Virus record (IMG/VR): IMGVR_UViG_3300042987_002221
Span: 57,205-121,204 of that record
DNA: 64,000 nt
Reading direction: 5' to 3' (one strand)
Source: a virus
Shown here: piece by piece, positions 2,235 through 61,003 of the stretch
How positions within the stretch are numbered: position 1 is the stretch's first letter
Layout of the letters: every line of letters begins with the position of its first letter
Program-made: the position numbers and the translations under genes
Notes under the pieces: generated by a model
What the model saw: the letters and a program-made list of their open reading frames with translations, nothing else
Told to the model about the DNA's origin: nothing
The model's database searches: none

Positions 2235-2512
2235 TGTTTGATCCATTTAAACAATCTAAACTTCAAAACGCATATCAATCTATGAAGGAGTACAAACCTG
2301 CTCTTGAAAAAGATATGACATTAGATGAGTTAAAACGTTTGAGTGGTAATGGAAAAATTACGGGAGAAACAAGAAAAACTCCCGATTCTGCTCTAGCTAC
2401 TAAAAAAGCAGAATATATGCGCGAACATAATATTCGTCCTGGTGATAAAGAATGGTTTAAACTTTGGTTTGCACAACCAGATATTACAGGCGAAAATCCC
2501 TTCAGCAAATAA
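2234..2512 (+). CDS. Small conserved phage protein upstream of terminase
   Basis: A 92-residue charged protein beginning MFDPFKQ. The ATG overlaps the stop of the preceding gene (TAATG), so translation is probably coupled; a longer reading six codons upstream is less likely. It has many Lys and Glu residues, no membrane segment and no known motif. Its position before the large terminase suggests a virion or packaging accessory role, which is inference only. Confidence 0.6.
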   Translation: MFDPFKQSKLQNAYQSMKEYKPALEKDMTLDELKRLSGNGKITGETRKTPDSALATKKAEYMREHNIRPGDKEWFKLWFAQPDITGENPFSK

Positions 2513-2518
2513 TTACTC

Positions 2519-2526
2519 AATAAATA
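2519..2526 (+). promoter_or_regulatory. Late promoter AATAAATA abutting the terminase start
   Basis: The motif ends 5 nt before the chosen ATG of the large terminase. A T4-type late start site would fall on or next to that ATG, so the mRNA would be leaderless. Confidence 0.6.
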
Positions 2527-2531
2527 AATTT

Positions 2532-4079
2532 ATGAGTGGAACATCTACTTTAGTAAAAACACCTTATACAAAAACAATATTCAAAACACAAAAAGAATTG
2601 GATGATTTTGTAAAGTGTTGTGATCCAATAAATGGTTATCTATATTTTATGGATAACTTTTTCTATATACAACATCCTACACGAGGTAGCATGTTGTATC
2701 ATCCGTGGCCTTACCAAGAGAGGCTTATAGAAACATATCACAAATATAGATTTAGCATTAGTTTGATGCCTCGTCAAAGCGGAAAGTCAACTAGTGCAGC
2801 TGGCTACTTACTGTGGTATGCAATGTTTGTGCCTGATTCAACAATATTAATTGCAGCACATAAGTATACTGGTGCTCAAGAAATAATGCAACGTATCAGG
2901 TATGCATATGAAAATTGCCCTGATCATATCAAAGCAGGTGTTACCACTTATAACAAAGGGTCTCTTGATTTTGAGAATGGATCTCGTATAGTTTCAGCAA
3001 CAACAACTGAAAATACAGGTCGTGGTATGGCTATTTCCTTATTATACTTGGACGAATTTGCATTCGTTAGACCTAGCATTGCTGAATTATTCTGGACTTC
3101 TATTACACCTACTTTGGCAACAGGTGGTAAAGCAATAATCACAAGCACACCAAATAGTGATGAAGATCAATTTGCACTAATTTGGAAACAAGCAAACAAA
3201 TGTCAAGATGAATATGGTAACGAAACAGAATTAGGAATAAATGGTTTTAAAGCATATAAAGCACATTGGAGTGAACAACCAGGAAGAGATGATAAATGGG
3301 CTAAAGAAATGGAAGCTCAACTTGGTACAGAACGCTTTAGACGAGAAATAGGATGTGAGTTCGTTATTGCAGAAGAAACATTGATATCACCAACTACATT
3401 AGTTGATTTAAATGGTATAGAACCCGTCAGTAGAATGGGACAAGTTCGTTGGTATAAACGTCCAGAAAAGGGAAATATCTATACTGTGGCTTTAGATCCT
3501 AGCTTAGGTACTGGATCAGACCCTGCAGCAATAGAAATCTATGAAGCAAACACCACTACACAAATTGGTGAATGGAAACATAATAAAACAGATATCCCAA
3601 ATCAAATAAAATTACTAGCACAGATAAACAAATATATTGCAGAATGTACTAACGAACCAGACAGCATTTATTATTCAATTGAAAACAATAGTATAGGGGA
3701 AGCTGCGTTGATTTCATTAACCGAATACGGAGAATCAAACATTCCTGGTGTCTTTTTAAGTGAGCCGGGAAAAAAACGTAAGGGCTTCAATACAACTCAT
3801 AAAGTAAAATTAGCCGCTTGTGCTAAATTTAAAACATTAGTTGAAACAAAAAAACTAAAAATCAATAGTAAAAGTTTAATCAGTGAATGCAAAACTTTTG
3901 TGGCATTAGGTGGAAGTTATGAAGCAAAGACAGGTGAAACAGATGATTTAGTAATGGCATCACTATTATCAGTAAGAATGTTTCAGGTGTTGGGTGATTA
4001 TCATTACAATCTAGAAGAAAGAATTAGTGACCACGATGAGTTTATACAACCATTACCCTTCTTTGCAGTGCTAAATTGA
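2532..4079 (+). CDS. terL: Terminase large subunit (T4 gp17-like)
   Basis: This is the packaging motor ATPase and headful nuclease. The 515-residue product has a Walker A-type motif MPRQSGKST at residues 79-87. A Walker B run YLDE lies at 172-175, and a C-terminal RNase H-like nuclease begins VALDPSLGTGSDPA with Asp322. Length and motif order fit T4 gp17 without its long N-terminal extension. An in-frame start 30 codons upstream exists, but it would overlap the previous gene, and the late promoter sits directly before the ATG chosen here. The candidate small subunit lies far away, near 57.5 kb. Confidence 0.95.
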   Translation: MSGTSTLVKTPYTKTIFKTQKELDDFVKCCDPINGYLYFMDNFFYIQHPTRGSMLYHPWPYQERLIETYHKYRFSISLMPRQSGKSTSAAGYLLWYAMFVPDSTILIAAHKYTGAQEIMQRIRYAYENCPDHIKAGVTTYNKGSLDFENGSRIVSATTTENTGRGMAISLLYLDEFAFVRPSIAELFWTSITPTLATGGKAIITSTPNSDEDQFALIWKQANKCQDEYGNETELGINGFKAYKAHWSEQPGRDDKWAKEMEAQLGTERFRREIGCEFVIAEETLISPTTLVDLNGIEPVSRMGQVRWYKRPEKGNIYTVALDPSLGTGSDPAAIEIYEANTTTQIGEWKHNKTDIPNQIKLLAQINKYIAECTNEPDSIYYSIENNSIGEAALISLTEYGESNIPGVFLSEPGKKRKGFNTTHKVKLAACAKFKTLVETKKLKINSKSLISECKTFVALGGSYEAKTGETDDLVMASLLSVRMFQVLGDYHYNLEERISDHDEFIQPLPFFAVLN

Positions 4080-4085
4080 TAAATA
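4078..4085 (+). promoter_or_regulatory. Late promoter GATAAATA
   Basis: The motif overlaps the terminase stop codon and lies 21 nt before the 959-residue modular protein gene. Confidence 0.65.
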
Positions 4086-4106
4086 GATTTATTACTAAGA
4101 GATTTT

Positions 4107-6986
4107 ATGCCAAAAAACAATGAATCACTAAACAAAGAACTGTATAGTTTGCTAAAAACTAGAGGATTCGATCCTATTCCAAAAGATGCTACTGGAGAAA
4201 CTAGTCCAGTGCCCGATGATGCAGATGTATTTAAATTCACCTTTAAACATGACAATCAAGTTAAAGGTACAGCATATGCAACTATTGACGGAAACAACAC
4301 ATTAACAGTTTATTATGATGATGAGGTTGTTAGCGAAGAAGTAGGTGGAGTAGATGATGTAAATATGAGTTGGACCAACTTTTTAAAGTATCTAAAAATG
4401 TGGGCACAACGTAGACAAATGGGTTTTGATTTAGAAAACAAAGATCATTTACACAGTGATATGGCACAAAGAGATTATGTTAAGAAGCAAGAAGTTGCTG
4501 AAAGTAAAAAGAAATTGATGAACAAAGGAACAACCATGCCAAACATAAGTGAAGGCTATTATGCTATGGGGAAAAACAGTAGTTATAATGATAACATTCC
4601 TACTGTAAAAATAATTTTACAACATTCAAGGCAAATCCAAGAAGGTGAACAACGTTATCGTAATGTTGCAAGAATTTATTTAGAGAATACCCAAGGTGAA
4701 AGATTTTTAGCACCCACTGTAAAGCCTGGCATTGCACAAGTATATGCTAGACATTTAGCAGAAGGCGGTAGTGTTAATGATGAACGTTGGAATCACATCA
4801 AATCATTATGTGAAGAATATAGCAAAATGGCAGGGTTTGTTCGTGCAGTTCGTGGAAATCAATTCAATGAATCAGCACAGAAGTTAGTAGAAGCAGGATT
4901 GAACCATTATGTTTCATTAAGAGAAACATTAGGTAAGATGCGTGGTAATCGTGGATACAATAGTTATTTTGAAAGTTGGACTCCTACATTAATGGAGACT
5001 GATGGTGATGAAACTTCCATCAATGAATTGTTTGTTCAAGAGACATTAGATCCAAGAATTGAAAGTGTAATGCCTATTCTTTCTAAATTGAGTAAAAATT
5101 TAAGTGAAGTAAAAGAAGTTAAAGAACTAGAAGAATGGGCTAATGGTTTACTTGAAGCACCAGGTGCAGAAACATTAGCACATAACCAATCTACAGCAAA
5201 GTCTAATTTAAAGTCATTTGATTTAGAAGAAGACAGTGTAAATGAAGGTTGGTTTGCTGACACATTAAAAAGTGTGGGGAAGGCTGTATTAGACAAGCTG
5301 GCCCCAAATGATAAACAATTATTACTAAAACTACAGAGAGATATGGGAGTTCCTACAACCGCTCAACATGGTAAACCATCAATGGCAAGAATGATGAGTG
5401 ATGAAGAAGTTCAAAAATTAATTGCTGCGGCTAGAAAAGTCAATGCTGGCAGAAATTCTAGTTTATCTGAAGAAGAAGTTGAAGAAAGTGGACTGCAGGC
5501 GTATTTAGGAAACAAGAAATACGGCAAAGACGGCATGGATTCATTACGCAAAGCAGGTCGTGAAGGTGCGAGCAAAGAAAAGATGGCAAAGATTCGCGCC
5601 AAATATGATAAGTTAGATGAAGAAGGTTTGGGACCAGAACAAAAACGTGTTGGTCAACTTGGACCAACTGAAAAGGTTAAGAAAAATAGTGGTGCCAGAG
5701 GTAAACTAGTTGGTGCCAATGAAAGTGTAGAGCAAGGTGTGGCGGAAGGCTCGACTAATAAAACACTGTTTGTTATTTACTATAAAACAGGTAAGGGATT
5801 TGACGCTGGTACTGGAGATGTAGGAATACTTGCATCCAATGAACAAAAAGCAAAAGAAAAATTTGCAAAAAAATATCCTCACTTTATTGTGACTAAAATA
5901 GTAGAAGGTATGAAATATGTTCTTGTTGATTACCGTGGAAATTATTATAAAGGCATGGATAAGTTTGGTAGAAATCTTTCTACTAGAAATCCAGAAGAAG
6001 CCGAAATATTTAATTTAGAGCGTGACGCTAAAGATATAGCATTATGGACTAGAAATAGATTTAAGGCAATACCTTGGTCAGGTCAGCGAGGTGTGGCGGA
6101 AGGCTTGCCTGGTAGTCTAAGTGCTAGTGATTATATGCCGGGAGCAACTTTACCACACACTAACTGGAATTGTATTAAGTGTAGTGGTCATAAGTTTATG
6201 TACAGTTTAGATGGAAAATTAACTAAAGATAATAAAAAAGGTGCAATAAGAGTTAAATGCCCTGATTGTGGCGGTTCTGGGTTAAAGAAACCTGACCCCG
6301 GTCACGATTATTTTGGTCGAAAGAAAGAGGAAGGTGTGGCGGAAGGCTCTGAGCAAGACCTAGTATATATTTCAAAAGACCGTGCCGAGGCTTTTGAAGA
6401 ATGGATGAACAGTGAAGGTCTTGAAACTAATGTTCCTAAAAATGATTATGGAACATATATTGTTTATAATTATTCTAACGAAGATCCTACTTCAAAATTA
6501 TATGCCAGTGAATGGAATGAAAGAAGAGAAGGTGTGGCGGAAGGCACCGATGATCCTAACCCCTCAGCCGGTCCAGGATCTATATCACATTCAACACCGG
6601 TAAGACGTAATGGCAAAGATGTTGGTGAATTATTTCAAACTAAATCAGGTAGTTGGGGATTCTTTATCAATACGTCAGCCAAAACTAAAGAAGGCTTTGA
6701 GAGCAAAGAAAAAGCACTGGAAGCGATGAAACAACATTTGGGGCAAGGTATGGCGGAAGGCATGGAACAAGAATGGGAAGTAAGTTTTGAACATGGTCCA
6801 CATCAATCAGACAGTGTTAAAGTAAAGGCATCTTCTAAAGAGGAAGCTATCTCTAAAGCAAAAGAACAGGCCAAGAAAACATTTAGGACTCAAAGCCTAT
6901 CACTAAATTGGGCAAGACCTGTAAAAAAAGGTGTGGCGGAAGGGCAAGAAGACCTTGATGCACTCAAAAAATTAATGGGTAAATAA
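4107..6986 (+). CDS. Modular protein with GVAEG-delimited cassettes
   Basis: A 959-residue hydrophilic late protein with no recognised enzyme. The first 540 residues appear to be one region, containing a conserved-looking helical segment (LQAYLGNKKYGKDGM). From residue 544 on, the protein is divided by six copies of G(V/M)AEG. Between them lie modules of about 113, 76, 61, 67 and 56 residues that are unrelated to one another; the second has a Cys4 pattern (CIKC, CPDC) like a zinc ribbon. VAE|G resembles the T4 prohead protease site ([LI]xE|[GAS]), so the modules may be cut apart in the capsid. The repeat is conserved as DNA in codons this gene otherwise avoids. Seen: repeats and modules. Inferred: processing and packaging. 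Confidence 0.75.
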   Translation: MPKNNESLNKELYSLLKTRGFDPIPKDATGETSPVPDDADVFKFTFKHDNQVKGTAYATIDGNNTLTVYYDDEVVSEEVGGVDDVNMSWTNFLKYLKMWAQRRQMGFDLENKDHLHSDMAQRDYVKKQEVAESKKKLMNKGTTMPNISEGYYAMGKNSSYNDNIPTVKIILQHSRQIQEGEQRYRNVARIYLENTQGERFLAPTVKPGIAQVYARHLAEGGSVNDERWNHIKSLCEEYSKMAGFVRAVRGNQFNESAQKLVEAGLNHYVSLRETLGKMRGNRGYNSYFESWTPTLMETDGDETSINELFVQETLDPRIESVMPILSKLSKNLSEVKEVKELEEWANGLLEAPGAETLAHNQSTAKSNLKSFDLEEDSVNEGWFADTLKSVGKAVLDKLAPNDKQLLLKLQRDMGVPTTAQHGKPSMARMMSDEEVQKLIAAARKVNAGRNSSLSEEEVEESGLQAYLGNKKYGKDGMDSLRKAGREGASKEKMAKIRAKYDKLDEEGLGPEQKRVGQLGPTEKVKKNSGARGKLVGANESVEQGVAEGSTNKTLFVIYYKTGKGFDAGTGDVGILASNEQKAKEKFAKKYPHFIVTKIVEGMKYVLVDYRGNYYKGMDKFGRNLSTRNPEEAEIFNLERDAKDIALWTRNRFKAIPWSGQRGVAEGLPGSLSASDYMPGATLPHTNWNCIKCSGHKFMYSLDGKLTKDNKKGAIRVKCPDCGGSGLKKPDPGHDYFGRKKEEGVAEGSEQDLVYISKDRAEAFEEWMNSEGLETNVPKNDYGTYIVYNYSNEDPTSKLYASEWNERREGVAEGTDDPNPSAGPGSISHSTPVRRNGKDVGELFQTKSGSWGFFINTSAKTKEGFESKEKALEAMKQHLGQGMAEGMEQEWEVSFEHGPHQSDSVKVKASSKEEAISKAKEQAKKTFRTQSLSLNWARPVKKGVAEGQEDLDALKKLMGK
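5736..6944 (+). repeat. Six dispersed 15-nt direct repeats encoding G(V/M)AEG
   Basis: Copies of GGTGTGGCGGAAGGC lie in frame at 5736-5750, 6090-6104, 6333-6347 and 6531-6545 (exact). Variants with one change lie at 6747-6761 (GGTATG) and 6930-6944 (final GGG). The unit uses GCG and GGC codons that are rare in the flanking AT-rich sequence, so conservation is at DNA level as well as protein level. Related copies occur in the gene at 58598-61003. Confidence 0.9.
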
Positions 6987-6995
6987 ACTCATAAA

Positions 6996-7019
6996 AAACC
7001 GCACAAAAATGTGCGGTTT
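6996..7019 (+). terminator. Rho-independent-like terminator
   Basis: A perfect 9-bp stem AAACCGCAC/GTGCGGTTT with an A-rich loop, 9 nt after the stop of the modular protein. The T-run is short. Confidence 0.7.
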
Positions 7020-7030
7020 ACCATATCCAT

Positions 7031-7038
7031 GATAAATA
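7031..7038 (+). promoter_or_regulatory. Late promoter GATAAATA before gene 32
   Basis: The motif opens the only leader longer than 100 nt in the neighbourhood, that of the single-stranded DNA-binding protein gene. Confidence 0.6.
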
Positions 7039-7045
7039 CATTGAT

Positions 7046-7099
7046 TTCTCGCTGTGAGTATGTAATACTTACGAGAAGTTAGTCACAGTGGCTTGTGAC
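7046..7099 (+). promoter_or_regulatory. Structured 5' leader of gene 32
   Basis: Two hairpins lie in the untranslated leader. One has the stem TTCTCG/CGAGAA (7046-7051 with 7072-7077) with an inner AGTAT/ATACT. The other is GTCACA/TGTGAC (7082-7087 with 7094-7099). They are followed by a T-rich unstructured stretch and AAGGAG. In T4, gp32 represses its own mRNA through a leader pseudoknot next to an unstructured region. A similar role here is inference. Confidence 0.45.
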
Positions 7100-7148
7100 G
7101 ACTATATTCAACAGAGACCATCTCATTTTTTTTAAGGAGTAAAACAAG

Positions 7149-8132
7149 ATGCCAAGCTTAGCCGAACTACGAGCAAGAATCGCTCAACAAGAAAACAAAT
7201 CACAACAAAATTCCAATCGTGAGTCAGATAATGCAATTTATCTACATTGGAATATCCCCGAAGGTACAACTGCCTCACTAAGATTCCTACAAGACGGAAA
7301 CGAAAAGAATGAATTTTTCTGGGTAGAACGTGCGCTAATCAAACTTCCATTCAACGGAGTCAAGGGTCAACCCGAAATGAAGCGTGTTGAAGTTACAGTT
7401 CCATGTATGGAGATGTACGGAGAATCATGCCCAATTCTAGCTGAAGTTCGTCCTTGGTACAAAGATGAATCACTTAAGGAAATGGCAAACAAGTATTGGA
7501 AAAAGCGTAGTTATCTCTTTCAGGGATTTGTACATCAAAATCCTCTACAAGATGATAAGAGTCCTGCAAACACGATTCGTAAGTTTATCATCAGCCCTCA
7601 ACTTATCACTATCATTAAGTCAGGTCTAGTAGATCCAGAAATTCTAGAACTGCCAACTCACTATGAACGTGGTCTTGATTTTCATATCAAGAAGACTTCA
7701 AAGGGCGGCTATGCTGATTATGGTACTAGCAGTTGGGCAAGGCGTGAATCTGCTCTTACAGATGCAGAACGTCAGGCTATTGAAACACAAGGACTTTACA
7801 ATCTAACCGATCTTCTTCCTAAGAAGCCAACTCAATCAGAACTTGCAATCATCAAGGAAATGTTTGATGCATCGGTAAACGGTGAACAATATGACCCAAA
7901 TCGTTGGGGTAATTACTATCGTCCATTTGGAGTTAATAGCCCAAGTGCTTCTAATTCATCAACATCAAATGTTCCTCAGAACAAACAAGTAGCAGATGAA
8001 GACGAAGACACTTCTGTACAGGAACCAGTTGTTTCTAAACAACCAGTGAAGGTTCCAAGTGCAACTGTTTCTAGTGATAAGGCCAGTGACATATTGGCCA
8101 TGATCAAGGCAAGACAAACAAAAGTTGCTTAA
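7149..8132 (+). CDS. 32: Single-stranded DNA-binding protein (T4 gp32-like)
   Basis: It coats and protects ssDNA at the replication fork and in recombination. The 327-residue protein has a basic N-terminus (AELRARIAQQ) used in the family for cooperativity. The OB-fold core carries Cys residues in VTVPCMEMYGESCPIL, and there is an acidic C-terminal stretch (ADEDEDTSVQE) used to recruit partners. A short extra helix follows the acidic part (SDILAMIKARQ). It stands ahead of uvsX and uvsY, its usual working partners. A strong ribosome site and its own leader suggest separate, possibly autogenous, control. Confidence 0.9.
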   Translation: MPSLAELRARIAQQENKSQQNSNRESDNAIYLHWNIPEGTTASLRFLQDGNEKNEFFWVERALIKLPFNGVKGQPEMKRVEVTVPCMEMYGESCPILAEVRPWYKDESLKEMANKYWKKRSYLFQGFVHQNPLQDDKSPANTIRKFIISPQLITIIKSGLVDPEILELPTHYERGLDFHIKKTSKGGYADYGTSSWARRESALTDAERQAIETQGLYNLTDLLPKKPTQSELAIIKEMFDASVNGEQYDPNRWGNYYRPFGVNSPSASNSSTSNVPQNKQVADEDEDTSVQEPVVSKQPVKVPSATVSSDKASDILAMIKARQTKVA

Positions 8133-8138
8133 ATGATT

Positions 8139-8160
8139 AAAGGGAGATTAATCTCCCTTT
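8139..8160 (+). terminator. Palindromic terminator after gene 32
   Basis: A perfect 10-bp stem AAAGGGAGAT/ATCTCCCTTT lies 6 nt downstream of the gene 32 stop. It is symmetrical, so it could act in either direction; the following sequence has only a weak T-run. Confidence 0.65.
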
Positions 8161-8183
8161 ACTTAATATTTAAGGAGTAAATT

Positions 8184-8411
8184 ATGACATTACCAAATGA
8201 AAGGTTTCGTTCCTTAAAACAGGGACGAAAACTATTAGAAGAATTATGCGATCCAGGTAAAACACCTAGGGTCCCTAGTATTGTACGTGAAAGGGCTCGT
8301 GGTGCATTACGTCATTATCCAAGTGAACATGAACTTGAACGTATTGCAGATACCTGTCCAGAATATCTTGATAAACAAGTTTTAAACTTTTATCATACAG
8401 GAATTAAATGA
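8184..8411 (+). CDS. BPSL0761-like small protein
   Basis: A 75-residue protein beginning MTLPNERFRSL with a central ALRHYPSEHEL stretch. This pattern matches the small BPSL0761-type family known mainly from proteobacterial genomes. The function is unknown. The phage copy sits between gene 32 and uvsX with a clear AAGGAG site. Its likeness to a bacterial family hints at capture from a proteobacterial host. The family call is from memory of the pattern. Confidence 0.6.
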   Translation: MTLPNERFRSLKQGRKLLEELCDPGKTPRVPSIVRERARGALRHYPSEHELERIADTCPEYLDKQVLNFYHTGIK

Positions 8412-8422
8412 ATGGAGAATAA

Positions 8423-9481
8423 ATGACAAAGCCCTTTGACCTATCAAAATTTCGTAAATCAATAACTAAATCTATCGATGGCATTAGCCTTGGATTCAAC
8501 GATCCAACCGATTGGATTTCAACTGGTAATCATGCATTGAATTATCTAATCTCAGGTGATTACAATAAGGGCATTCCTCTTGGCAAGGTTACTGTCTTTG
8601 CAGGTGAATCAGGATCAGGAAAAAGTTTCATCTGTTCTGGCAATCTAATTAGAAACGCACAAGAACAAGGAATCTATGTAATTCTTATTGACAGTGAAAA
8701 CGCACTTGATGAACAGTGGCTACGCAATCTTGATGTTGATACATCAGAAAATAAATTGCTGAAGATTAATATGGCAATGATTGATGACGTGGCTAAACTT
8801 ATCAGTGAATTCGTCAAAGAATATAAGGTAATCCCAGAAGCCGAACGTCCAAAGGTATTGTTTGTGTTGGACAGTCTAGGTATGCTGTTGACACCTACTG
8901 ATGTAAATCAGTTTGAAAGTGGTGATCTGAAGGGTGATATGGGTAGAAAGCCTAAGGCACTAACTGCATTGGTTCGCAATTGCGTCAACATGTTCGGTGA
9001 TCTAAATATTGGTTTGGTTGCTACTAATCACACATATGCAAGTCAAGACATGTTTGACCCTGATGATAAGATCAGCGGAGGTCAAGGTTTTATTTACGCA
9101 AGTTCTATTGTGGTAGCAATGCGTAAGTTGAAGCTAAAGGAAGATGAAGAAGGCAATAAGATTACAGAAGTACGTGGTATTCGTAGTGCATGTAAGATCA
9201 TGAAAACACGATACGCAAAGCCATTTGAAAGTGTACAAATCAAAATTCCATATGAAACTGGTATGAATCCTCATAGCGGACTTGTTGATATGTTTGAAGG
9301 AAAAAGTATCCTGCAAAAGGATGGCAATAGTCTTAAGGCTGTGTTTCCAGATGGTACAAGTATCAAAAAGTTTCGCAAGGCATGGGAAAAGAACGAAGAT
9401 GGTTGTCTAGACAAAGTAATGTTAGCATTTAAAAAATTGGATGCAAATGTAAATACTACATTTGAGGAGGCACCAGAATGA
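8423..9481 (+). CDS. uvsX: RecA-like recombinase UvsX
   Basis: It catalyses strand exchange for recombination-dependent replication and repair, loaded by UvsY onto gp32-coated DNA. The 352-residue product has Walker A GESGSGKS at residues 61-68, a Walker B-like VLFVLDSLGML near residues 145-155, and a QGFIYASSIVVAMRK segment typical of UvsX. The length is close to T4 UvsX (about 390). The 3' end overlaps the next gene by four bases (ATGA), indicating coupled translation. Confidence 0.93.
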   Translation: MTKPFDLSKFRKSITKSIDGISLGFNDPTDWISTGNHALNYLISGDYNKGIPLGKVTVFAGESGSGKSFICSGNLIRNAQEQGIYVILIDSENALDEQWLRNLDVDTSENKLLKINMAMIDDVAKLISEFVKEYKVIPEAERPKVLFVLDSLGMLLTPTDVNQFESGDLKGDMGRKPKALTALVRNCVNMFGDLNIGLVATNHTYASQDMFDPDDKISGGQGFIYASSIVVAMRKLKLKEDEEGNKITEVRGIRSACKIMKTRYAKPFESVQIKIPYETGMNPHSGLVDMFEGKSILQKDGNSLKAVFPDGTSIKKFRKAWEKNEDGCLDKVMLAFKKLDANVNTTFEEAPE

Positions 9482-9723
9482 GTTTGATGATTGCTAACGA
9501 ACTTTGGGATTTAGTAAAGTCTCATCTTAACCAAAACGATACAAAAGAAGTAGCAGAAAATATGGTAAGTCTTTTTATTGATTATGGTTATGATGCCGAT
9601 GATATCAAAGAATCTTTTAAGGACAAAGTAGTACTAACTGCATTGAAAGACTATTTGCAAGATGAAGATTTTAATGATATTGAAAATGATGAATCAGATG
9701 ATGAAGAAGACGAAGAATGGTGA
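9478..9723 (+). CDS. Small acidic protein between uvsX and uvsY
   Basis: An 81-residue protein, helical in its first two thirds, with a strongly acidic tail (DIENDESDDEEDEEW). It overlaps uvsX by four bases and ends 3 nt before uvsY. The acidic tail resembles those used to bind replication proteins. No family name can be given. A second possible start lies three codons downstream. Confidence 0.65.
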   Translation: MSLMIANELWDLVKSHLNQNDTKEVAENMVSLFIDYGYDADDIKESFKDKVVLTALKDYLQDEDFNDIENDESDDEEDEEW

Positions 9724-9726
9724 TGC

Positions 9727-10182
9727 ATGAATTGGCATACGAAAGTTTCGGAAAATCTATCCGTTATCCCAGACTTTATATCGCATTATGAAAAAGAACT
9801 AGAACAAGCTAGAAAAGAGGTAGGTATATATGGCAAGATTGAAAAAAATATTGCCAATCTACCCGGTATCACTGAAGAACGTTTTAACCAGCTTCAAGAA
9901 ATTGAAGCTGTTTTAAATTACCTCAATATTCAACTTAAAAAGATTCGCCGAAAACATTTTCAAAAATTCCTTGAGGCGTATAATCGTGAATTATCGAGCC
10001 GTGATGCAGAAAAATATGCGGATGGTGAAGATGAAGTTATCGATTTTGAAATCTTGATAAATGAAGTGGCACTAATACGTAATAAGTATTTGGGTTTACT
10101 TAAAGGATTAGAAAGCAAAAATTTTATGTTAGGGCATATCACAAGACTACGAACTGCTGGTCTTGAAGATATAACTATATGA
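9727..10182 (+). CDS. uvsY: Recombination mediator UvsY
   Basis: It helps UvsX displace gp32 from ssDNA. The 151-residue protein is nearly all helical, with Lys/Arg-rich and Glu-rich stretches. The C-terminal region (LRTAGLEDITI after KNFMLGHITR) resembles the end of T4 UvsY, where an RGF-x-I-x-H-I segment occurs. Size and position directly after uvsX support the call. Sequence likeness is modest, so the assignment rests partly on context. Confidence 0.75.
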   Translation: MNWHTKVSENLSVIPDFISHYEKELEQARKEVGIYGKIEKNIANLPGITEERFNQLQEIEAVLNYLNIQLKKIRRKHFQKFLEAYNRELSSRDAEKYADGEDEVIDFEILINEVALIRNKYLGLLKGLESKNFMLGHITRLRTAGLEDITI

Positions 10183-10191
10183 GGCAATGTA

Positions 10192-10854
10192 ATGAATCTA
10201 ACAACAGTAGATATTTTTAATGAAGATTATCAACCGAAACGTCAGCCGGTTACTTTCTTTGAAAGTAAAGTAGATACATTGGTTTTATCTTGTGCTGTGT
10301 ATCGCCATAACAATACATTTGGTATCATGGATTCTATCGTAGACTCTGCGTTGACCCATGCCGATTATGTTTTAGCATCAGCAATTGAACAGTTTTACAA
10401 AAATAAATTAGTCATTGCTAAACTTAAGGGCAAACATCTAAGTAAATTCAAAGAAGATTTGCTGACATTTTTAACCTCGGATAGAAAAAAGGTATTAGTT
10501 GATGACATTCCAATGATCACAAGTTTGCCTAAACTGTACAATGAAGATTTGGAAGTACTTAAGGTAACCGAGTCTTTGAACAAAACGTGTGAAGATAAAA
10601 CAAATCTTAAGTTTAAAGGTACTTTTACCTATGTCGGTAAAGTTGATAAAAAACACAAAAATAGATTTTCTTGTGAGTATTGGTTTAAAGATGCAAATAA
10701 CAATGCCTATATGACTGAGATTGGTAAGAAAAATCCTTTGTTATCAATTTGGGAAAAATCTATTTCTACGTCAGAAATAACAGTAGAAGGCAAATTTAAA
10801 TATCACGATAGCGATTTTCAGTTCCATAAATTTTCTCATTTTAAGGTCCTATAA
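10192..10854 (+). CDS. Unidentified protein of the recombination cluster
   Basis: A 220-residue protein beginning 9 nt after uvsY and ending just before the first sigma70-type promoter of the accessory block. It is rich in Lys, Phe and Thr. A C-terminal stretch (CEYWFKDANNNAYMTEIGKKNPL) looks like a small beta domain. No catalytic motif is visible. It may serve DNA metabolism, judging only from its position. Confidence 0.6.
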   Translation: MNLTTVDIFNEDYQPKRQPVTFFESKVDTLVLSCAVYRHNNTFGIMDSIVDSALTHADYVLASAIEQFYKNKLVIAKLKGKHLSKFKEDLLTFLTSDRKKVLVDDIPMITSLPKLYNEDLEVLKVTESLNKTCEDKTNLKFKGTFTYVGKVDKKHKNRFSCEYWFKDANNNAYMTEIGKKNPLLSIWEKSISTSEITVEGKFKYHDSDFQFHKFSHFKVL

Positions 10855-10855
10855 T

Positions 10856-10884
10856 TTGACAATAAATCCTCTGTGCTATATACT
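10856..10884 (+). promoter_or_regulatory. Sigma70-type promoter TTGACA-17-TATACT
   Basis: The -35 box is perfect, the spacer is 17 bp and the -10 box is TATACT. It is followed by the inverted repeat ACTGTG-AA-CACAGT over the start region, then AAGGAG and a small gene. Confidence 0.85.
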
Positions 10885-10908
10885 GTGAACACAGTAAGGA
10901 GCACAGAC

Positions 10909-11076
10909 ATGAAGACTGGTCTTTTCAATGCAAAGCATCACGCCCATGTGGGTCCCGGTGGCTGGCGCTGCACTTGCTGCGGCCCCGCCCCCAAGCATCG
11001 TGGTGTTGTTGCAAAGCAACACCAGCGCAAGATCGCCCGCATGTTGTCCAAGCTTGAACGTGATGTTCAGGCTTGA
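10909..11076 (+). CDS. Small Cys/His/Lys-rich protein
   Basis: A 55-residue basic protein beginning MKTGLFNAKHHAH with WRCTCCGPAPKHRG in the middle, a possible metal-binding knuckle, then a basic helix. The start was chosen because AAGGAG precedes this ATG at good spacing; the 12 codons upstream would overlap the promoter. Codons are richer in G and C than in the flanking recombination genes. The function is unknown; a host-takeover role is only a guess from its strong early-type promoter. Confidence 0.65.
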   Translation: MKTGLFNAKHHAHVGPGGWRCTCCGPAPKHRGVVAKQHQRKIARMLSKLERDVQA

Positions 11077-11101
11077 CAATAAATCCTCAATCTAATATAA
11101 T
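11073..11101 (+). promoter_or_regulatory. Consensus sigma70 promoter, cassette copy 1
   Basis: Perfect TTGACA, a 17-bp spacer and perfect TATAAT, followed by the palindrome TGTC-TTTCTA-GACA (11101-11114) and ACGGAGCA. The -35 box overlaps the end of the preceding gene. Confidence 0.92.
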
Positions 11102-11133
11102 GTCTTTCTAGACAGTTGAAACACGGAGCACAC

Positions 11134-12165
11134 ATGTCTACTATTCGCATTCTCAATGGTTCTTATCGCAACCAACCCGTCAAGAATCAAGTCTTTACCC
11201 TCGTCAAGGGCTTTCAGACTGGCAAGCTTGGCAACTACGTGACCGTCAAGAATGATGGTCAATTCAATATTGACATTGAGTCTGTCAAGGTCAAGGTTGA
11301 GGCTATCACTGACATTGAATATGTCAACGGTATGCCCGAGCAGGTTTCGGTTCACCCTGTTGCTCAGGCTGTTGCCGAAGTTGTGTCTGAGACTGATGAG
11401 CAGGCTATGGATCGTATCAAGGAGCGTTTTGGCATCCTTGATGAAATGAGCGGTGCTTGCATTGCGGGTGATATCCGTGCAATGATCGTCACTGGCCCTC
11501 CCGGTGTCGGTAAGTCGCATGGTGTTCATACCCAACTGCAAAAGGCTAGCCTTTTTGATAAGCTGGCTGGTAAGAAGCCCCGTTTCGAGATTGTCAAGGG
11601 CACTATGTCTGCGATTGGTCTGTTCGCACTGCTGTATAAGTATAGTGATTCCAAGAATGTCCTGGTTTTTGACGATTGCGATATCTGGGAAGATCAGGAT
11701 GCTATCAACATTCTGAAGGGTGCATTGGATTCGGGCAAGACCCGTCGTATTTCTTATAACAAGGACTCTCGTCTTCTGCGTGAGGAAGGTGTTCCTAACA
11801 CTTTCAATTTCAACGGTTCTATCATCTTCATCACCAACAATAGCTTTGATAACAAGCGGGCTAGTAAGATTCAGCCGCACATGGAGGCTCTGCAATCTCG
11901 CAGTCACTTCCTGGATCTGACTATCAACACCGATCGTGATAAGATGCTCCGCATCCGTCAGGTCTATCGTGATGCTGATCCGGGTCTGTTCGTTGATTAC
12001 GATTTCTCTAAGGAACAAGAGGTTGAAATTCTTGATTTCATGTGGGAAAATCGTAGTAAGATTCGTGAGATGAGCCTGCGTATGTGCCTCAAGCTGGCTG
12101 ATCTGGTGAAGATTAGTGCTTCCAACTGGAAGAGTCTTGCACGGGCTACTTGCGTTCGCCCTTGA
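11134..12165 (+). CDS. AAA-type ATPase
   Basis: A 343-residue P-loop ATPase. Walker A GPPGVGKS lies at residues 121-128 and Walker B VLVFDDCD near residues 176-183. A sensor-like SIIFITNNSF lies near 227-236, and arginines follow in the C-terminal helical part. The N-terminal 90 residues are a small beta-like domain (TLVKGFQTGKLGNYVTVKN). It resembles ATPases found in several large T4-like phages whose role is not known. A loader or remodelling role in DNA or host processes is plausible. A consensus promoter drives it alone, suggesting early high expression. Confidence 0.8.
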   Translation: MSTIRILNGSYRNQPVKNQVFTLVKGFQTGKLGNYVTVKNDGQFNIDIESVKVKVEAITDIEYVNGMPEQVSVHPVAQAVAEVVSETDEQAMDRIKERFGILDEMSGACIAGDIRAMIVTGPPGVGKSHGVHTQLQKASLFDKLAGKKPRFEIVKGTMSAIGLFALLYKYSDSKNVLVFDDCDIWEDQDAINILKGALDSGKTRRISYNKDSRLLREEGVPNTFNFNGSIIFITNNSFDNKRASKIQPHMEALQSRSHFLDLTINTDRDKMLRIRQVYRDADPGLFVDYDFSKEQEVEILDFMWENRSKIREMSLRMCLKLADLVKISASNWKSLARATCVRP

Positions 12166-15303: not shown

Positions 15304-15504
15304 ATGATCAACGAAGCAAAAGTCCTGAAAGTTGTCAAGTCTGTGACCGATACCAACGCTTACTTTTACAACGGTACCTTGTTTTTGGAAACTGTTGACA
15401 GCGACATTGCTGTTCGTGTTTTCAATGCAATTTGGGAAAACATCACGGCCGCGGTTGCGTTTGGTAAGGTCGGTAACGAGACCTCTTACGATTTTCTCGG
15501 TTGA
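15304..15504 (+). CDS. Small hypothetical protein
   Basis: A 66-residue protein beginning MINEAKVLKVVKS, mostly beta-like with an AVRVFNAIWENI helix. The ATG follows ACGGAGCAAACGAA. It lies between two identical promoters; the downstream one starts within its last codons. No family is recognised. Confidence 0.6.
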   Translation: MINEAKVLKVVKSVTDTNAYFYNGTLFLETVDSDIAVRVFNAIWENITAAVAFGKVGNETSYDFLG

Positions 15505-17948: not shown

Positions 17949-18746
17949 ATGAAGCGTATTTTTAGTGTTGGTATTCTTGCCGCTGCTGTTCTTGCTACGG
18001 GTTGCACTCGTATCGAAACCGGTGAAGTAGGCGTTCGTGTGGGCTTTGACAAGCAAGTCAAGCCCGGTGAACTTCAACCTGGTAGTTTTAATCAAACCCT
18101 TGTCGGTGATGTATTGACGTTCCCGGTAAAGGATGTCAATGTGGCAATTGAGAACATGACTCCTGTTGCTAAGGACAACAGTACCATGAAGGATTTTGAT
18201 GTTGTGGTAGTTTATAACATCAATCCAAATCAGGTAAGTGAAATTTATTCTACTAAGAACAAGGCGTTTCACGCTATCACCAAGGATGATGTTTATCTGA
18301 TGTACAATTATGTAGTGCAAAATGCACGAAATGCAGTTTACAAGGCTGCACGAAAGTACGATGCGCTAGATATGGGTGACAATCGTAGTGAAATGGAGAA
18401 CTTCATCAAGGAAGAAATTGTTCGTAATTTGACCGAAGAAAAGCTTGATGGTAGTATTGCTATCAGTCAGGTTCTGATTCGTAACGTTGTTCCTGCTGAT
18501 TCGGTTGTAGCAAGTGCTAATGATCTGGTTCGTGCTAAGAATGAACTTAAGCAAAAGGAAGTTGAAGTCAAGACCGCCGAAGCTGAGGCTCGCCGTATGG
18601 CAGCACTGGCTAATAACAGTCAGAGTTCTATTGCTTTCATGCAAGCCCAGGCCACTTTGAATATTAGTGAAGCAGTAAAAGCGGGAAAAGTTCAGACCAT
18701 TATCATCCCAAGTAATCTGACTATGCTAGGGAATATTTCTAAGTAA
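17949..18746 (+). CDS. SPFH/prohibitin-domain lipoprotein
   Basis: A 265-residue protein with a lipoprotein signal (hydrophobic run and lipobox ATGC, Cys near residue 18), so it is probably anchored in a membrane. The SPFH (Band 7) region follows from [16 protein letters not shown] through the IRNVVPADS area. It ends in a Lys/Glu/Ala coiled coil and [16 protein letters not shown] proteins form membrane rings or scaffolds and regulate proteases. The original 3' end has been displaced: a second, diverged copy of the last 18 codons lies beyond the homing endonuclease at 19540-19593. Confidence 0.85.
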
Positions 18747-19451
18747 TTTTCTGCGTCTAGCTTCTTTGCTAGCCGCAGTAACATAAGTCCATTCGGACAT
18801 AGGTTTTCCTGTAGACTTACATTCATCTAGAATTTCTACAGGCAATCTATGTCCTTTTCCGTCTTTATCTATTAGAGTTATTATATTTTTACCAAGAAAA
18901 TTATGATTTCCTTGCTCAACACGAATTTGATTATTTTTTCTAGCTGTTTCTTTATTTAAAAAATTGTGTGTTCCATTTTCAACTCGTTGTTGATTTATTT
19001 TTTTAGAAAGTTCAGATAATTCATCTTTATTCATAGTTTGAAAATTTAATTTTTTCTGTTCTGCCATTTTTTTAGCTACATTCATGTTATCTCTTGTTAA
19101 GAATGGATGAGAGCCATTCTCTGTTTTTTTGAGATTATTTGCAGTTGCGGCAATTGATAGTTTTTTTATTGTTTTCTCTTCAAAAATTCTACCAGACGTT
19201 CCCTCACCACCGTCTGTTTTATTTCGTAATATCCCTGTATTTAAATCTTTTCTGCCGTACCATTTAATATATCTACGTTCAAGGGCTATTGCACCTATTT
19301 CAGTTAGGTTTTTTTCTAGAAAAACTATTTTGGTTAAATCTTTTGGTATTTTAACTGAGTGTTTAGCAAGATAACGTTTTTCTTTACCTTTGCCAATATA
19401 ATACGGAGTCCCATCTTTTCTTAAATAGGCGTAAACATAATAAATATTCAT
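18726..19451 (-). CDS. GIY-YIG homing endonuclease
   Basis: A 241-residue free-standing homing endonuclease. The GIY-YIG signature is YYVYAYLR...PYYIGKG at residues 4-22, with [10 protein letters not shown] and the catalytic-type KTDGGEG downstream. The C-terminal half has repeated NUMOD3-like stretches ([33 protein letters not shown]) for DNA contact. It is transcribed against the SPFH gene and overlaps its last 21 nt. The displaced SPFH 3' end on its other side shows it as an inserted element. It shares about half its N-terminal sequence with the endonuclease at 30809-31465. Confidence 0.93.
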
Positions 19452-30808: not shown

Positions 30809-31465
30809 TTAAGTTTTCAACGTTTTACATTTTTGAAAATGAAACCGCATCATAACAGGTCCGTTTCCGATTTTGTGACAGTGGGGGCAAACATATTCTT
30901 TTTTTGGTACGCCTTTTAACATTTTGCTTTTTGCTTGTATAATTTCTAACGATTGCTTTTTTCCTTTATTTGGAGAAGGTTTTCCTTTATGTGCATTAGA
31001 CAAAGCAATACAATGTTCTTCTGAAAATTTTTTACCTTTTTTACTAGTACTGATGTTTAATTTATGTTCTTCTGAAAATGTTCTTCCCCTCAAAGCCAAA
31101 CTGGTTTTGGGATTTTTAATTCCCCTGCGCATTCTTCCTCGTTTTGTAGATGCCTCTTTTGAAAATCTATAACCTGTAGCTCCTTCTCCGCCGTCAGTTT
31201 TATTTCTTAGTATTCCAGTATTTAAATCTTTCCGTCCATACCATTTAATCATTCTTCTTTCTATTGCAAATGCCCCTATCTCGCTAAGGTTAGATTCAAG
31301 TATGATAATTCTTGTTTTGTTTTTGGGTGGTTTTATACCCTTATCGTGAGTATTCCATGCTCGGATATTGTATCCCTTTCCAATATAGTATGGGGTGTTA
31401 TCTTGTCTTAAATATGCATACACATAAAACCCTGTGGGAGGGTTTTTTCTTGAATAAATAGTCAT
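30809..31465 (-). CDS. GIY-YIG homing endonuclease with C-terminal zinc finger
   Basis: A 218-residue free-standing endonuclease. The GIY-YIG core reads FYVYAYLR...PYYIGKG, then [12 protein letters not shown] and [13 protein letters not shown]3-like stretches follow ([33 protein letters not shown]), and it ends in a CPHC-x14-H-x4-C zinc finger. The first 100 residues closely match the other GIY-YIG gene, but the DNA-contact half differs, so the targets should differ. It is intergenic, between a hypothetical gene and a structural gene. Confidence 0.92.
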
Positions 31466-57964: not shown

Positions 57965-58579
57965 ATGCGTGGTTTAAAACAGTTTATAACCGAAAGTGTT
58001 AAAACATACAATTACACGATTAAAATTGCCGGTGATGTGGATAAAAACTTTTTGGATTTGTTTAAATACAATCTAAACAAGTTCGATCCTATTGAAATAA
58101 GTAGCCCGTCTAGTACTCCTATTCAAAAATCACCTTATGGTTTTCCTGGATTAGAAAATCAAAGTGTAACTATAATCAAAGCTAATTTTAGATATCCAGC
58201 AACTGAACCTATGATACAACAAATCGCACAGTTATGTGGTTATAATGTAAACATGGTACGTGCTATATCTACAGATTTTGATGATAGTATCAATCTTGAA
58301 GCTGATAAATTTGCAAATCAAATGAAAGAAAGTCCAGTTCTTACTCATGAAGAAATGGCTGATAATGGCAAAGAAGCTAGTAAAGCTTATAGTCAAAGTT
58401 ATTTGAATTCAATTAAAGATCAAGGTAAGAACAGTAAGATTGATATTCCATATGAAGGTAAAAAGACACCTGATAGTTTTGACCCATTTAAAGCTATACC
58501 ACAAGATGTTAAAGGTGCAAAGAGTCCAATGAGCACAATTACAAGACCGCCTAAGCCAAAGACAGGCGCTATGGCATGA
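57965..58579 (+). CDS. Probable internal head or virion protein
   Basis: A 204-residue protein whose N-terminus MRGLKQFITESVKTYN holds I-T-E|S, a match to the T4 prohead-protease rule, and resembles the capsid-targeting leaders of internal proteins. The body has a possible ferredoxin-like fold (TIKIAGDVDKNFLDLFKYNL; MIQQIAQLCGYNVNMVRAIS), then a long Lys/Pro-rich disordered tail ending RPPKPKTGAMA. Confidence 0.6.
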   Translation: MRGLKQFITESVKTYNYTIKIAGDVDKNFLDLFKYNLNKFDPIEISSPSSTPIQKSPYGFPGLENQSVTIIKANFRYPATEPMIQQIAQLCGYNVNMVRAISTDFDDSINLEADKFANQMKESPVLTHEEMADNGKEASKAYSQSYLNSIKDQGKNSKIDIPYEGKKTPDSFDPFKAIPQDVKGAKSPMSTITRPPKPKTGAMA

Positions 58580-58597: not shown

Positions 58598-61003
58598 ATG
58601 GATTTTAAATCATTATTAGACCAATTAAACCAATTGTCTGAGGCTAAAGAAGAAACAAAGACAGGTGTAAAACACAAAGCCAAACCAGGACGTTATGGCG
58701 GCTATGATCCAGAAACTAACCCTGACAAAGATGACGATGAAAAGAAAGCTGAACCAGCCGCAAAACGTGGTCGTGGTCGTCCTAAGAAAGGTGCTGATAG
58801 CGAAACTGGTGAGGTAAAGAAGTGGGATACTGATACACTACAGAGTTGGATTGTTGGTAATAAACCAAAGAAATTACCTGGTAAAGCCAGTGTAAAACAT
58901 ACTATGAAAGAAGAAAGTGTAGCAGAAGGTACTGATAAAAAATCTTCATTGAAAGATTGGATGAAAGTTGTTTCAGAAAATGTACCTCCAGGGATGAAAC
59001 CTCTAGCTATGATGAATCCACAAAACAAACAAGTTGGAGCAGGTGTTTTAACTAGCAAAAATCCAGCAGTTCAAAAAATGTTAGGTGGCATAGATCCAAA
59101 AGATGTACAAATTGTACAAACTACTGCACAAACTTCAACTCAACCAGCTGCAGGTGCAACAGGTCAAGCACCAACTGGAACACAACCAATGAAGGAAAAA
59201 GAAGGTGATTATTCTGCTAAAAAAGCAAGAGCAGGAAAAGATATCGGTAAGCCAGGTAAGCAATTCAGTAAGATCGCTACAAGTGCAGGCAAACGTTATG
59301 GTTCAAAGGCAGCAGGCGAACGTGTTGCAGGTGCGGTTCTTAAAAATCTAAGAAAAGCCAATGAAGGTGTGGCGGAAGGCTATTCACTAAAGAAAACTAA
59401 TGTTGAAAAAACATTTCATCCAGGTGATCCAGAGGATTTCGGCAGTGTTGATATGACACGAAAAGATACAGATTACGAAATTATTAATAACAAAACAGGT
59501 CAAGTAGTAGGTACTGCAAGTTGGACTACTAATGATTATTTTGGACCAGGGGCAATAAAAATTACCATGAAGAATGGTGCTACACGTTATCTCGATATTA
59601 AGAATAGTGACAAGGGTAATCCACAAAGTGCCTTCAATCGTTTTGTAAAAGATCCAAGTACTTCTAAAAAATATAAAGAGCAAGGTGTGGCGGAAGCAGA
59701 CATTCCATCTGATCAAATGGACATGGGTGCAGGTTTAGGTGCCGGTAGAAGCGATAAAACGTTTGAAGGCAAAAAAGCTAAGCCTGATTTCTTAGATATT
59801 GATAAAGATAAAAACAAAAAAGAATCTATGAAAAAAGCAGCAAGTGACAAGAAAAAGAAAAAAGTTACTGAAAGTTCACATAGACATTCTGCTGCTAGAC
59901 TAATGGGTAAATCACACGCACTAGCAAAAGAAGGATACAATTGCCGTTATGAAGATATGGATGAAGCAAGAGAATATCATGAAGGCTTCAAAGAAGGTTT
60001 AGATGAATGCTATGGTCAGGGTGTATACGAAACTGCACCAGCAATGCCACCAGCAACAGTTTCTGGAATGGCAAGTGCAGCAATGCCTACACTAGAAGAC
60101 GAAATGGACATGTATGAAATGGATAGAACAGAATACATGAGACATAAGGCAAGCACCACACCAGGTGATACATTCAAGGCATTTGGACAAACATTCAAAG
60201 ACACAGAAGTATTAGAAACTGATAGTTTCTTTGAAAGTTTAGATAATCAACTACAGGCACTTTTAGAAAGTGAACAAGTTGATGAAGGTATGACTGTTTC
60301 TATAAGCAAAGGTCAACAAGGAATGCCTGACTCAGTAAGCGTTACTGCTCAAGATGCGGAAGCTGAACAACTTTTAGGCTTGATTAAAACTGCTGGTTTA
60401 GGCTTGTTCGGCGATCAACAGTCTAGTGATTATGGTGCAAGTGATCAAGGTAAAGAATCACATGGGGATATTGAAGTGGTAGGTGATCATGATGGAATGA
60501 TGTCAATCATGAAAAAACTAACAGGTCAATCTGACAGTCAAGATTACGCTGATGAAGAAGGTGAAGAGGAAGAAACTTGTGATTCATGCGGTGAATATGA
60601 AAGTGATTGTGGATGTGATCACGAGGAACAAGTTGATGAAGTTGAAAATGACGAACAACGTGAATTTCAAGTAAGTGAAGACAATCCTCCTGATACAGAT
60701 GCAGCCGAAACTACTGCTGATGAAGAAGCCGAAGCAGCCGAAGATCAAGCATTAGCAACTCAAAATGTAGAGGAAGAGTTGAATGAATGGGCAAATGATG
60801 CAGGGCAAAGTCTTGAAGAGTTCAAAGAAGAAACATTCACAACTGATGATGAGTTCATGATCCAAACAATTGCAGGTGGTTTGAATAAACCTAAATCAAC
60901 AGGACAAACTACTATCCCTGTAATTGCAGGACAAAACGATAGAATGGGATATTCTACTAATGAATCTATTGGTGATTGGAAAAAATTAGCAGGACTCAGA
61001 TAA
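58598..61003 (+). CDS. Large internal head protein candidate with AT-hook and GVAEG sites
   Basis: An 801-residue, highly charged protein. The N-terminal MDFKSLLDQLNQLSEAKEE contains L-S-E|A, a prohead-protease-like leader. RGRGRPKK at 57-64 is an AT-hook for AT-rich DNA. SVAEG (near 107-111), GVAEG (near 257) and GVAEA (near 363) bracket a 101-residue beta module. A very acidic C-terminal third carries Cys pairs (ETCDSCGEYESDCGCDHEE). Together this suggests a scaffold or packaged DNA-associated protein cut during head maturation. Seen: motifs. Inferred: processing and location. Confidence 0.7.
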   Translation: MDFKSLLDQLNQLSEAKEETKTGVKHKAKPGRYGGYDPETNPDKDDDEKKAEPAAKRGRGRPKKGADSETGEVKKWDTDTLQSWIVGNKPKKLPGKASVKHTMKEESVAEGTDKKSSLKDWMKVVSENVPPGMKPLAMMNPQNKQVGAGVLTSKNPAVQKMLGGIDPKDVQIVQTTAQTSTQPAAGATGQAPTGTQPMKEKEGDYSAKKARAGKDIGKPGKQFSKIATSAGKRYGSKAAGERVAGAVLKNLRKANEGVAEGYSLKKTNVEKTFHPGDPEDFGSVDMTRKDTDYEIINNKTGQVVGTASWTTNDYFGPGAIKITMKNGATRYLDIKNSDKGNPQSAFNRFVKDPSTSKKYKEQGVAEADIPSDQMDMGAGLGAGRSDKTFEGKKAKPDFLDIDKDKNKKESMKKAASDKKKKKVTESSHRHSAARLMGKSHALAKEGYNCRYEDMDEAREYHEGFKEGLDECYGQGVYETAPAMPPATVSGMASAAMPTLEDEMDMYEMDRTEYMRHKASTTPGDTFKAFGQTFKDTEVLETDSFFESLDNQLQALLESEQVDEGMTVSISKGQQGMPDSVSVTAQDAEAEQLLGLIKTAGLGLFGDQQSSDYGASDQGKESHGDIEVVGDHDGMMSIMKKLTGQSDSQDYADEEGEEEETCDSCGEYESDCGCDHEEQVDEVENDEQREFQVSEDNPPDTDAAETTADEEAEAAEDQALATQNVEEELNEWANDAGQSLEEFKEETFTTDDEFMIQTIAGGLNKPKSTGQTTIPVIAGQNDRMGYSTNESIGDWKKLAGLR
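59366..59698 (+). repeat. Two further copies of the GVAEG repeat
   Basis: GGTGTGGCGGAAGGC at 59366-59380 (exact) and GGTGTGGCGGAAGCA at 59684-59698 flank a 101-residue module. A third site at 58916-58930 encodes SVAEG with ordinary AT-rich codons, so the peptide is kept there without the DNA repeat. Confidence 0.9.

Follow-up and report, generated by a model that had tools for sequence, protein, structure and literature searches.

In-frame DNA seams encoding a putative protease site bound exchangeable modules in long genes of large T4-like phages

The window analysed here is a stretch of 64,000 nucleotides (nt) of viral DNA (IMG/VR record IMGVR_UViG_3300042987_002221, positions 57,205 to 121,204), and comes from a linear viral record of 121 kb that bears T4-type genes. 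It contains two genes in which a short DNA sequence, referred to here as the seam, separates protein modules. The first encodes a protein of 959 amino acids (aa). It contains six in-frame copies of the 15-mer GGTGTGGCGGAAGGC, encoding G-V-A-E-G, of which four are exact and two have one mismatch. The copies start at 5736, 6090, 6333, 6531, 6747 and 6930, and the five modules between them are 113, 76, 61, 67 and 56 aa long, with no mutual resemblance. The gene is organised as follows.

4107..6986, + strand: carrier gene of the first seam array, 959 aa, adjoining the large terminase gene (2442-4079) on its downstream side
4107..5735, + strand: N-terminal carrier part, upstream of seam 1
5622..5735, + strand: pre-seam segment ..LGPEQKRVGQLGPTEKV..GANESVEQ, found again in contig L321 (98.5% DNA identity), in a gene that is otherwise unrelated
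5736..5750, + strand: seam 1, GVAEG, exact; predicted cut after 5747
5751..6089, + strand: module 1, 113 aa, no relative found
6090..6104, + strand: seam 2, GVAEG, exact
6105..6332, + strand: module 2, 76 aa, two CxxC pairs, zinc-ribbon-like
6333..6347, + strand: seam 3, GVAEG, exact
6348..6530, + strand: module 3, 61 aa, weak match to L147 (25%)
6531..6545, + strand: seam 4, GVAEG, exact
6546..6746, + strand: module 4, 67 aa, 36-40% identity to modules of L108, L118, L120 and L269
6747..6761, + strand: seam 5, GMAEG, one mismatch
6762..6929, + strand: module 5, 56 aa, 54% identity to module 4 of L120 and 58% to L210, with different neighbours there
6930..6944, + strand: seam 6, GVAEG, last codon GGG, one mismatch; identity between the window and contig L130 restarts at 6928
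6945..6986, + strand: C-terminal tail QEDLDALKKLMGK, common to N-terminal homologues carrying different arrays

Module 2 is 45% identical to a seam-preceded module of L050 and 34% identical to modules in L277 and L279. For module 5, a search at the protein level returned a single relative. An earlier note, made from the sequence of the window, had described the six copies and the unrelated modules of 56-113 aa between them, and a check of positions and mismatches bears this description out. In shuffled-window controls, 0.01 occurrences of the degenerate five-codon pattern were expected (six found), and 0.35 of the 15-mer at up to three mismatches (nine found). The 959-aa open reading frame (ORF) and the window both have a GC content of 37%.

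The sites in the second seam gene were overlooked in the earlier note. This gene encodes 801 aa and is preceded by a gene whose product starts in the manner of a T4 capsid-targeting peptide.

57965..58579, + strand: 204-aa neighbour protein, capsid-targeting-like start MRGLKQFITE|S
58598..61003, + strand: second seam gene, 801 aa, N-terminus MDFKSLLDQLNQLSE|A, C-terminus IGDWKKLAGLR
58916..58930, + strand: SVAEG site in ordinary codons, four mismatches to the seam
59366..59380, + strand: seam, GVAEG, exact
59381..59683, + strand: 101-aa module between the exact seam and the GVAEA variant
59684..59698, + strand: seam variant GVAEA, two mismatches

The seam is not peculiar to this window. The conserved unit reaches further upstream than the 15-mer, and is about 18 nt in all (CAAGGTGTGGCGGAAGGC). 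A scan of viral contigs with the exact 15-mer returned at least 120 stretches. Among the matches listed, the seams form in-frame arrays of up to 11 copies, the spacing at multi-copy loci is in multiples of three, and the GVAEG frame is the longest open frame in 150 of 162 matches. Two-copy loci also make up 31 of 120 for the seam, against 0 of 120 for a synonymous control 15-mer composed of commoner codons, which likewise returned at least 120 loci. Allowing up to four mismatches, 328 seams were located in 109 ORFs, and the median module is 73 aa long. Seam genes are present in numerous large viruses that infect aquatic bacteria. In bacterial genomes the 18-mer was found only as 26 scattered single matches, with no arrays; the seam is therefore phage-specific, and these matches do not indicate a host.

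Codon usage was analysed in 80 homologues of the carrier half (63 after removal of duplicates), which were fetched by protein and not by seam. Each homologue carries between 0 and 6 seams. The 18 GVAEG sites in this set use GTG in 15 cases (background 8%, p about 1e-14), GCG in 17 (background 5%, p about 5e-22) and GGC in 14 (background 19%, p about 1e-7). The seam is conserved at the DNA level, beyond the peptide. This had been proposed in the earlier note on the basis of codon choice, and the nearly invariable use of the rare GTG and GCG codons in homologues collected by protein confirms it. GVEEG, GVDEG and AVAEG sites in the same homologues have ordinary codons, and since these related sites persist, the V-x-E-G peptide itself is selected as well. 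The possibility that translation starts internally at the seam (GTG, GGAAGG) was also considered, and was dropped because the start-codon spacing is inconsistent and the frame is continuous.

Comparison of related contigs reveals what happens at the seams. The sister contig L130 is 95.1% identical to the window over 3447-5752 and 98.9% over 6928-12000, and between its first and last seams it has two modules, which are unrelated to the five of the window. One L130 cassette is found again in L321, a third phage, where it lies in a different gene and has 100% DNA identity over 349 nt, from seam to seam. This L321 gene is a 1312-aa ORF (4751-8686) with eleven seam sites. L321 also holds a 131-nt segment of the window that ends in the first seam (98.5% identity), and the segment 59353-59696 of the second seam gene (344 nt, containing the 101-aa module) recurs from seam to seam in the unrelated L321 gene with 97.1% DNA identity. 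The same 101-aa module is found in L097 with 75% aa identity and different neighbours. The swap between L130 and the window, together with the identical seam-to-seam cassettes in different genes, shows that cassettes are exchanged at seams between genes and between phages. The earlier suggestion that short identical seams let modules be gained, lost and shuffled is thus borne out, and module order in relatives is not fixed.

The same conclusion is reached on a larger scale. Among 74 pairs of homologous internal modules, both neighbours differ in 48, one differs in 14 and both are shared in 12, these last being mostly from near-identical contigs. Homology breakpoints at 95% identity or more fall within 6 nt of a seam in 36 of 93 cases, where 2.9 are expected. 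At 80% identity the signal is diluted by ordinary divergence in the carrier half, where many of the leftover breakpoints lie at other x-x-E|(G/S/D) sites. Nine exact junctions were laid out, including a 99.4% identical cassette shared by two ORFs of one contig. A module resembling an ADP-ribosyltransferase (ART-like) was used to collect 38 loci with the module only, not with the seam: a seam lies 0-4 aa upstream in 26 of them, with exact DNA in 15, and the neighbours are of many different kinds. In L302, a 171-aa ORF consists of a targeting peptide, a seam and the ART-like module and nothing else, while in L299 and L300 the module stands alone without a seam. In total, 247 distinct seam-bounded modules were grouped into 170 families, of which 126 are singletons.

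Two other origins of the repeats can be considered here. Chance, or local tandem duplication within one lineage followed by divergence of the modules, has nothing in its favour except the repeat itself. It is refuted by modules which are mutually unrelated, are shared across genes and phages with other neighbours, and are identical only from seam to seam, and we regard its probability as negligible. Alternatively, the 18-mer could be a dedicated DNA site for a recombinase or nuclease specific to it, comparable to the sites of integron cassettes, with the peptide being incidental. The extreme DNA identity and the sharp boundaries would be well explained in this way. However, the seam is not palindromic, it lies in one frame of long ORFs (at all multi-copy loci, and in about 150 of the 162 matches listed), the imperfect seams GMAEG, GVAED and GVAEA border exchanges as well, and the T4 recombination system works without such a site (PMC9391042). 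No integrase was found among the window ORFs read, although a search aimed at integrases or linked recombinase genes was not made systematically. We consider a dedicated site improbable.

The encoded peptide resembles the cleavage sites of T4-type prohead proteases, for which T4 gp21 cuts at L/I-x-E (PMC9026906). A protease of this kind (family S77; PF03420, E 1e-24 to 1e-29) and the capsid protein gp23 are both encoded by 11 of the 15 large seam or carrier contigs, and the N-terminus of the relatives' capsid protein reads ..LLAE|SS. The residue at position P3 is V in the seams (V-A-E|G), and I or L in the targeting peptides and the capsid protein N-terminus.

The best indication of a cut comes from signal peptides, which act at N-termini. 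Modules starting with a twin-arginine translocation (TAT) signal, SLEEIDRRGFLKG.., lie directly behind a seam-type site at nine of ten loci collected with such a module, at ORF positions 46-666, and are followed by different domains; the match to Pfam TAT_signal has an E value of 1e-4, just below its cutoff. Sec-like starts no more than 12 aa after a seam were found in 6 of 10 cases, against 0.8 expected (p=2e-4). This placement is most simply explained by a cut, because signal peptides work at N-termini. The modules concerned suggest that some injected proteins may be re-exported to the host periplasm. TAT or Sec modules right behind seams in long ORFs were noted in L273-L282, in the L321 ORF 4751-8686, and in L084, L117, L122 and L056.

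If the chain remained uncut, the seam would be a flexible joint in a virion protein built like beads on a string, and its DNA identity would come from recombination alone. The seam is indeed short and flanked by glycine, and recombination by itself does explain the identity. The internal signal peptides right behind seams fit poorly with an uncut chain, as do the retention of VEEG, VDEG and AVAEG with ordinary codons, and the targeting-peptide starts and S77 protease of the relatives. An uncut chain is therefore unlikely in our view. The earlier note had proposed that the phage protease cuts at the seams, and the targeting peptides, the gp21 and gp23 of relatives, the signal peptides after seams and the sites kept as protein all agree with this; the cut itself is something that we infer from the sequences.

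Capsid-targeting-like N-termini, defined as M-(K/R/N)-..-(I/L/V/F/M)-x-E near residue 10, are present in 26 of 73 seam ORFs compared to 31 of 453 other ORFs (p=3e-10). In T4, the capsid-targeting sequences are removed by gp21 (PMC9026906). The 959-aa ORF does not itself have such a start, its carrier being of the PA5oct type: residues 86-328 share about 27% identity with a 'virion structural protein' that PA5oct-type jumbo phages encode at the same gene position, and the N-terminal part matches phrog_13484 (virion structural protein, E 5e-6). Additional sites of the form V/I/L/F-x-E-(G/S/A) lie in this part, among them ISE|G, FNE|S, VNE|G and VEE|S. Its fold model has low confidence (predicted template-modelling score, pTM, 0.43) and matches mainly unnamed phage proteins; one match of this low-confidence model in the viral library is named 'large polyvalent protein-associated domain'. 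One seam array is fused to a cytidylyltransferase; enzymes of this type have been reported from cyanophage virions (PMC3037559, PMC10665884). Seam ORFs also share a module, at up to 73% identity, with the C-terminus of S-CREM2 gp137, which is a module-sharing relative rather than a seam protein and was detected in virions by mass spectrometry with four peptides (PMC10665884). Packaging of the seam-gene products in the head is indicated by these features. The earlier term 'capsid polyprotein' should rather read packaged head-internal polyprotein; the shell protein is encoded by a separate gp23-type gene.

The 204-aa protein at 57965-58579 is likely to be packaged together with the product of the second seam gene. 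Many other small ORFs have T4-like targeting starts (MRAKEFITE, MRADEFVFE, MKTIEIIE, MHLIDIFE, MQIKELITE), at 15392, 17595, 55819 and 56217 of G000:C1 and at 19658, 21090, 26282 (- strand) and 57965 of the window, where the ORFs at 19658 and 21090 look like paralogues. These starts suggest a large set of packaged proteins.

Packaged and cut modules might also be disposable, the arrays being a filler of the prohead scaffold that is chopped up and mostly expelled, with no task in the host. T4 core proteins of the gp22, gp67 and gp68 type are likewise cleaved into numerous pieces, most of which leave the head (PMC9026906). In keeping with this, several tails (KKLMGK, RIRKLSGL, DWKKLAGL) resemble the scaffold tail ..DIKRLAGL, and in the prohead-protease neighbourhoods of L227 and L229 a seam-like site (..EEQGMAEGEDEEF..) lies inside the gp68-like core protein of one relative, beside the protease in L227. 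Against this, the cassettes look folded and have conserved cores (a GNAT-like domain, the cytidylyltransferase carrier, the strongly conserved ART-like module, a zinc-ribbon-like module), TAT and Sec signals would be senseless in a filler, and the repertoire of 170 families is large and open, as expected for accessory genes. We regard disposable filler as unlikely, and as the most serious of the alternatives.

The domains found across seam ORFs are biochemically disparate. A Pfam scan of 71 seam ORFs (E<=0.01) identified GNAT, cytidine deaminase, LysM and other domains, to which the cytidylyltransferase, ART-like and zinc-ribbon-like modules can be added. In searches against phage isolate records the seam ORFs matched only through scattered small modules, and the ART-like module had no match in 50,697 such records, nor in a sequence search against the Protein Data Bank (PDB). 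None of the window's own modules has an assigned function, apart from the zinc-ribbon-like appearance of module 2. In the L321 ORF, the module after the first seam (aa 393-432) has a weak match to ribosome modulation factor (Pfam RMF, E 4e-4, below cutoff), and could possibly be an injected ribosome-silencing protein.

On the basis of these observations, we consider it likely that in large T4-like phages the seam genes encode head-internal polyproteins, in which the protease-site seam doubles as a recombination joint. A carrier part, either a T4-like N-terminal targeting peptide or a known virion protein, would bring the chain into the growing head. The gp21-type (S77) prohead protease would then cut after Glu at every seam (V-A-E|G) during head maturation, and the small proteins freed in this way would remain in the head until they leave it together with the DNA, and would serve as accessory effectors once inside the host. 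Some look like enzymes, and others carry TAT or Sec signals that would become N-terminal only through the cut. The phages' ordinary recombination at the same-frame 18 nt would insert, delete and swap cassettes between genes and phages. Because every cassette is bounded by an identical in-frame 18 nt, any exchange within the seam rebuilds both the frame and the cut site, and the identity of the seam would maintain itself in otherwise diverged genes. T4 recombines at homologies of 2-10 bp (PMC9391042), so that an 18-nt joint is ample. For the released modules we infer injection and an effector role. The full scheme, in which aquatic phages trade payload cassettes through the 18-nt joint and then package, cut and inject a mixture of effectors, some of them bound for the periplasm via the host TAT or Sec system, is offered much more tentatively than the polyprotein itself.

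Several observations weigh against the polyprotein and its proposed function. No protease or capsid gene was found in the window's own 121-kb fragment, both being known from relatives. The seams have V at P3, where T4 prefers L or I. A generic test for hydrophobic segments around seams gave 4 against 2.3 expected, which is not significant. GVAEG-type seams are absent from about half of the carrier homologues, and the arrays are therefore dispensable for the carrier. Functions can be assigned to only a few modules, and the best PDB fold match of the ART-like model, a rifampin ADP-ribosyltransferase, is weak (E 0.09).

The genes that follow 4107-6986 on its 3' side encode a gp32-like single-stranded DNA-binding protein and a UvsX-like recombinase, and Pseudomonas phage Paride has a matching gene order (terminase, carrier homologue, ssb, UvsX). 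Elsewhere in the window, an upstream element of 31-62 nt is repeated at 10856, 11072, 15239, 15500 and 16713, with perfect sigma-70 hexamers (TTGACA..TATAAT) and a common leader ending in a GGAG stretch; these elements are probably a family of strong early promoters. A long collagen-like ORF with GFSG/GTSG repeats (61087-64000), broken by repeated blocks SVTLAGSVIDYTYLPNGTPAGTLY..NTWSNVGPIQGPSG, runs off the end of the window. Two related ORFs on the minus strand (18726-19451 and 30809-31465) resemble GIY-YIG homing endonucleases; a Pfam scan of the first gave no match.

If the proposal is correct, it would explain how a packaged arsenal can change rapidly without each protein needing its own promoter, start codon, targeting signal and cut site. 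It also provides a reading rule: when split at CAAGGTGTGGCGGAAGGC, opaque long phage ORFs would yield a list of small proteins, 170 families in the present sample, that are candidates for host takeover or anti-defence, and the function of the modules becomes directly testable.

The closest parallel is with the internal proteins of T4. IPI-III and Alt have M-(K/R)-x-x-x-F-I-x-E starts, are packaged and injected as payload, and are processed by the Glu-specific S77 protease gp21; the L302 layout of targeting peptide, seam and ART-like module is reminiscent of Alt. In T4, however, each internal protein has its own gene and a single N-terminal cut, whereas the seam genes have many payload modules per chain and one repeated site; its DNA stays identical and serves for exchange. 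Polyvalent proteins (PMC5512222) similarly combine many unrelated and partly enzymatic domains in one chain that is predicted to be packaged and injected early. They differ in having no uniform DNA seam, in having larger domains, with no repeated cut site to fix their order, and in that their processing is ascribed to built-in metallopeptidase domains; no polyvalent hallmark domains (zincin metallopeptidase, ArdC-N and similar) were found in the Pfam scan of the 71 seam ORFs. The head proteins of phiKZ and SPN3US (PMC9026906, PMC10052503) have several Glu-specific cut sites per packaged jumbo-phage protein, but these are in propeptides, their DNA is not identical, and they are not cassette borders.

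The cyanophage T4-GC119/121 genes (Kyanoviridae) have the same module families in varied order beside the terminase genes, and some members are annotated as virion proteins or were detected in virions; those examined do not have the GVAEG DNA seam. In cyanophages P-SSM2, S-B43, S-RS29 and ACG-2014b (L239, L237, L238 and L240), small Cys/Lys-rich modules (VWPSAYASGALVKCRK; SFCARMKGM..LRAWNC) are shuffled beside the terminase, also without a DNA seam. Integron cassettes and the C-terminal swapping of polymorphic toxins are further cases in which unrelated modules are exchanged at a short common sequence. In the seam system, by contrast, modules are exchanged at any point along the chain while staying within one reading frame, and a putative protease site is encoded by the joint; the seam, an in-frame 18-mer, is also not a palindromic site of the attC type. 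The open-access literature was searched and no description of this arrangement was found, subscription papers being outside the search. The targeting peptide, the prohead protease and injected proteins are each known. We rate the arrangement as categorically new, because the T4, polyvalent and phiKZ-type systems all lack an identical protease-site DNA seam bounding in-frame cassettes.

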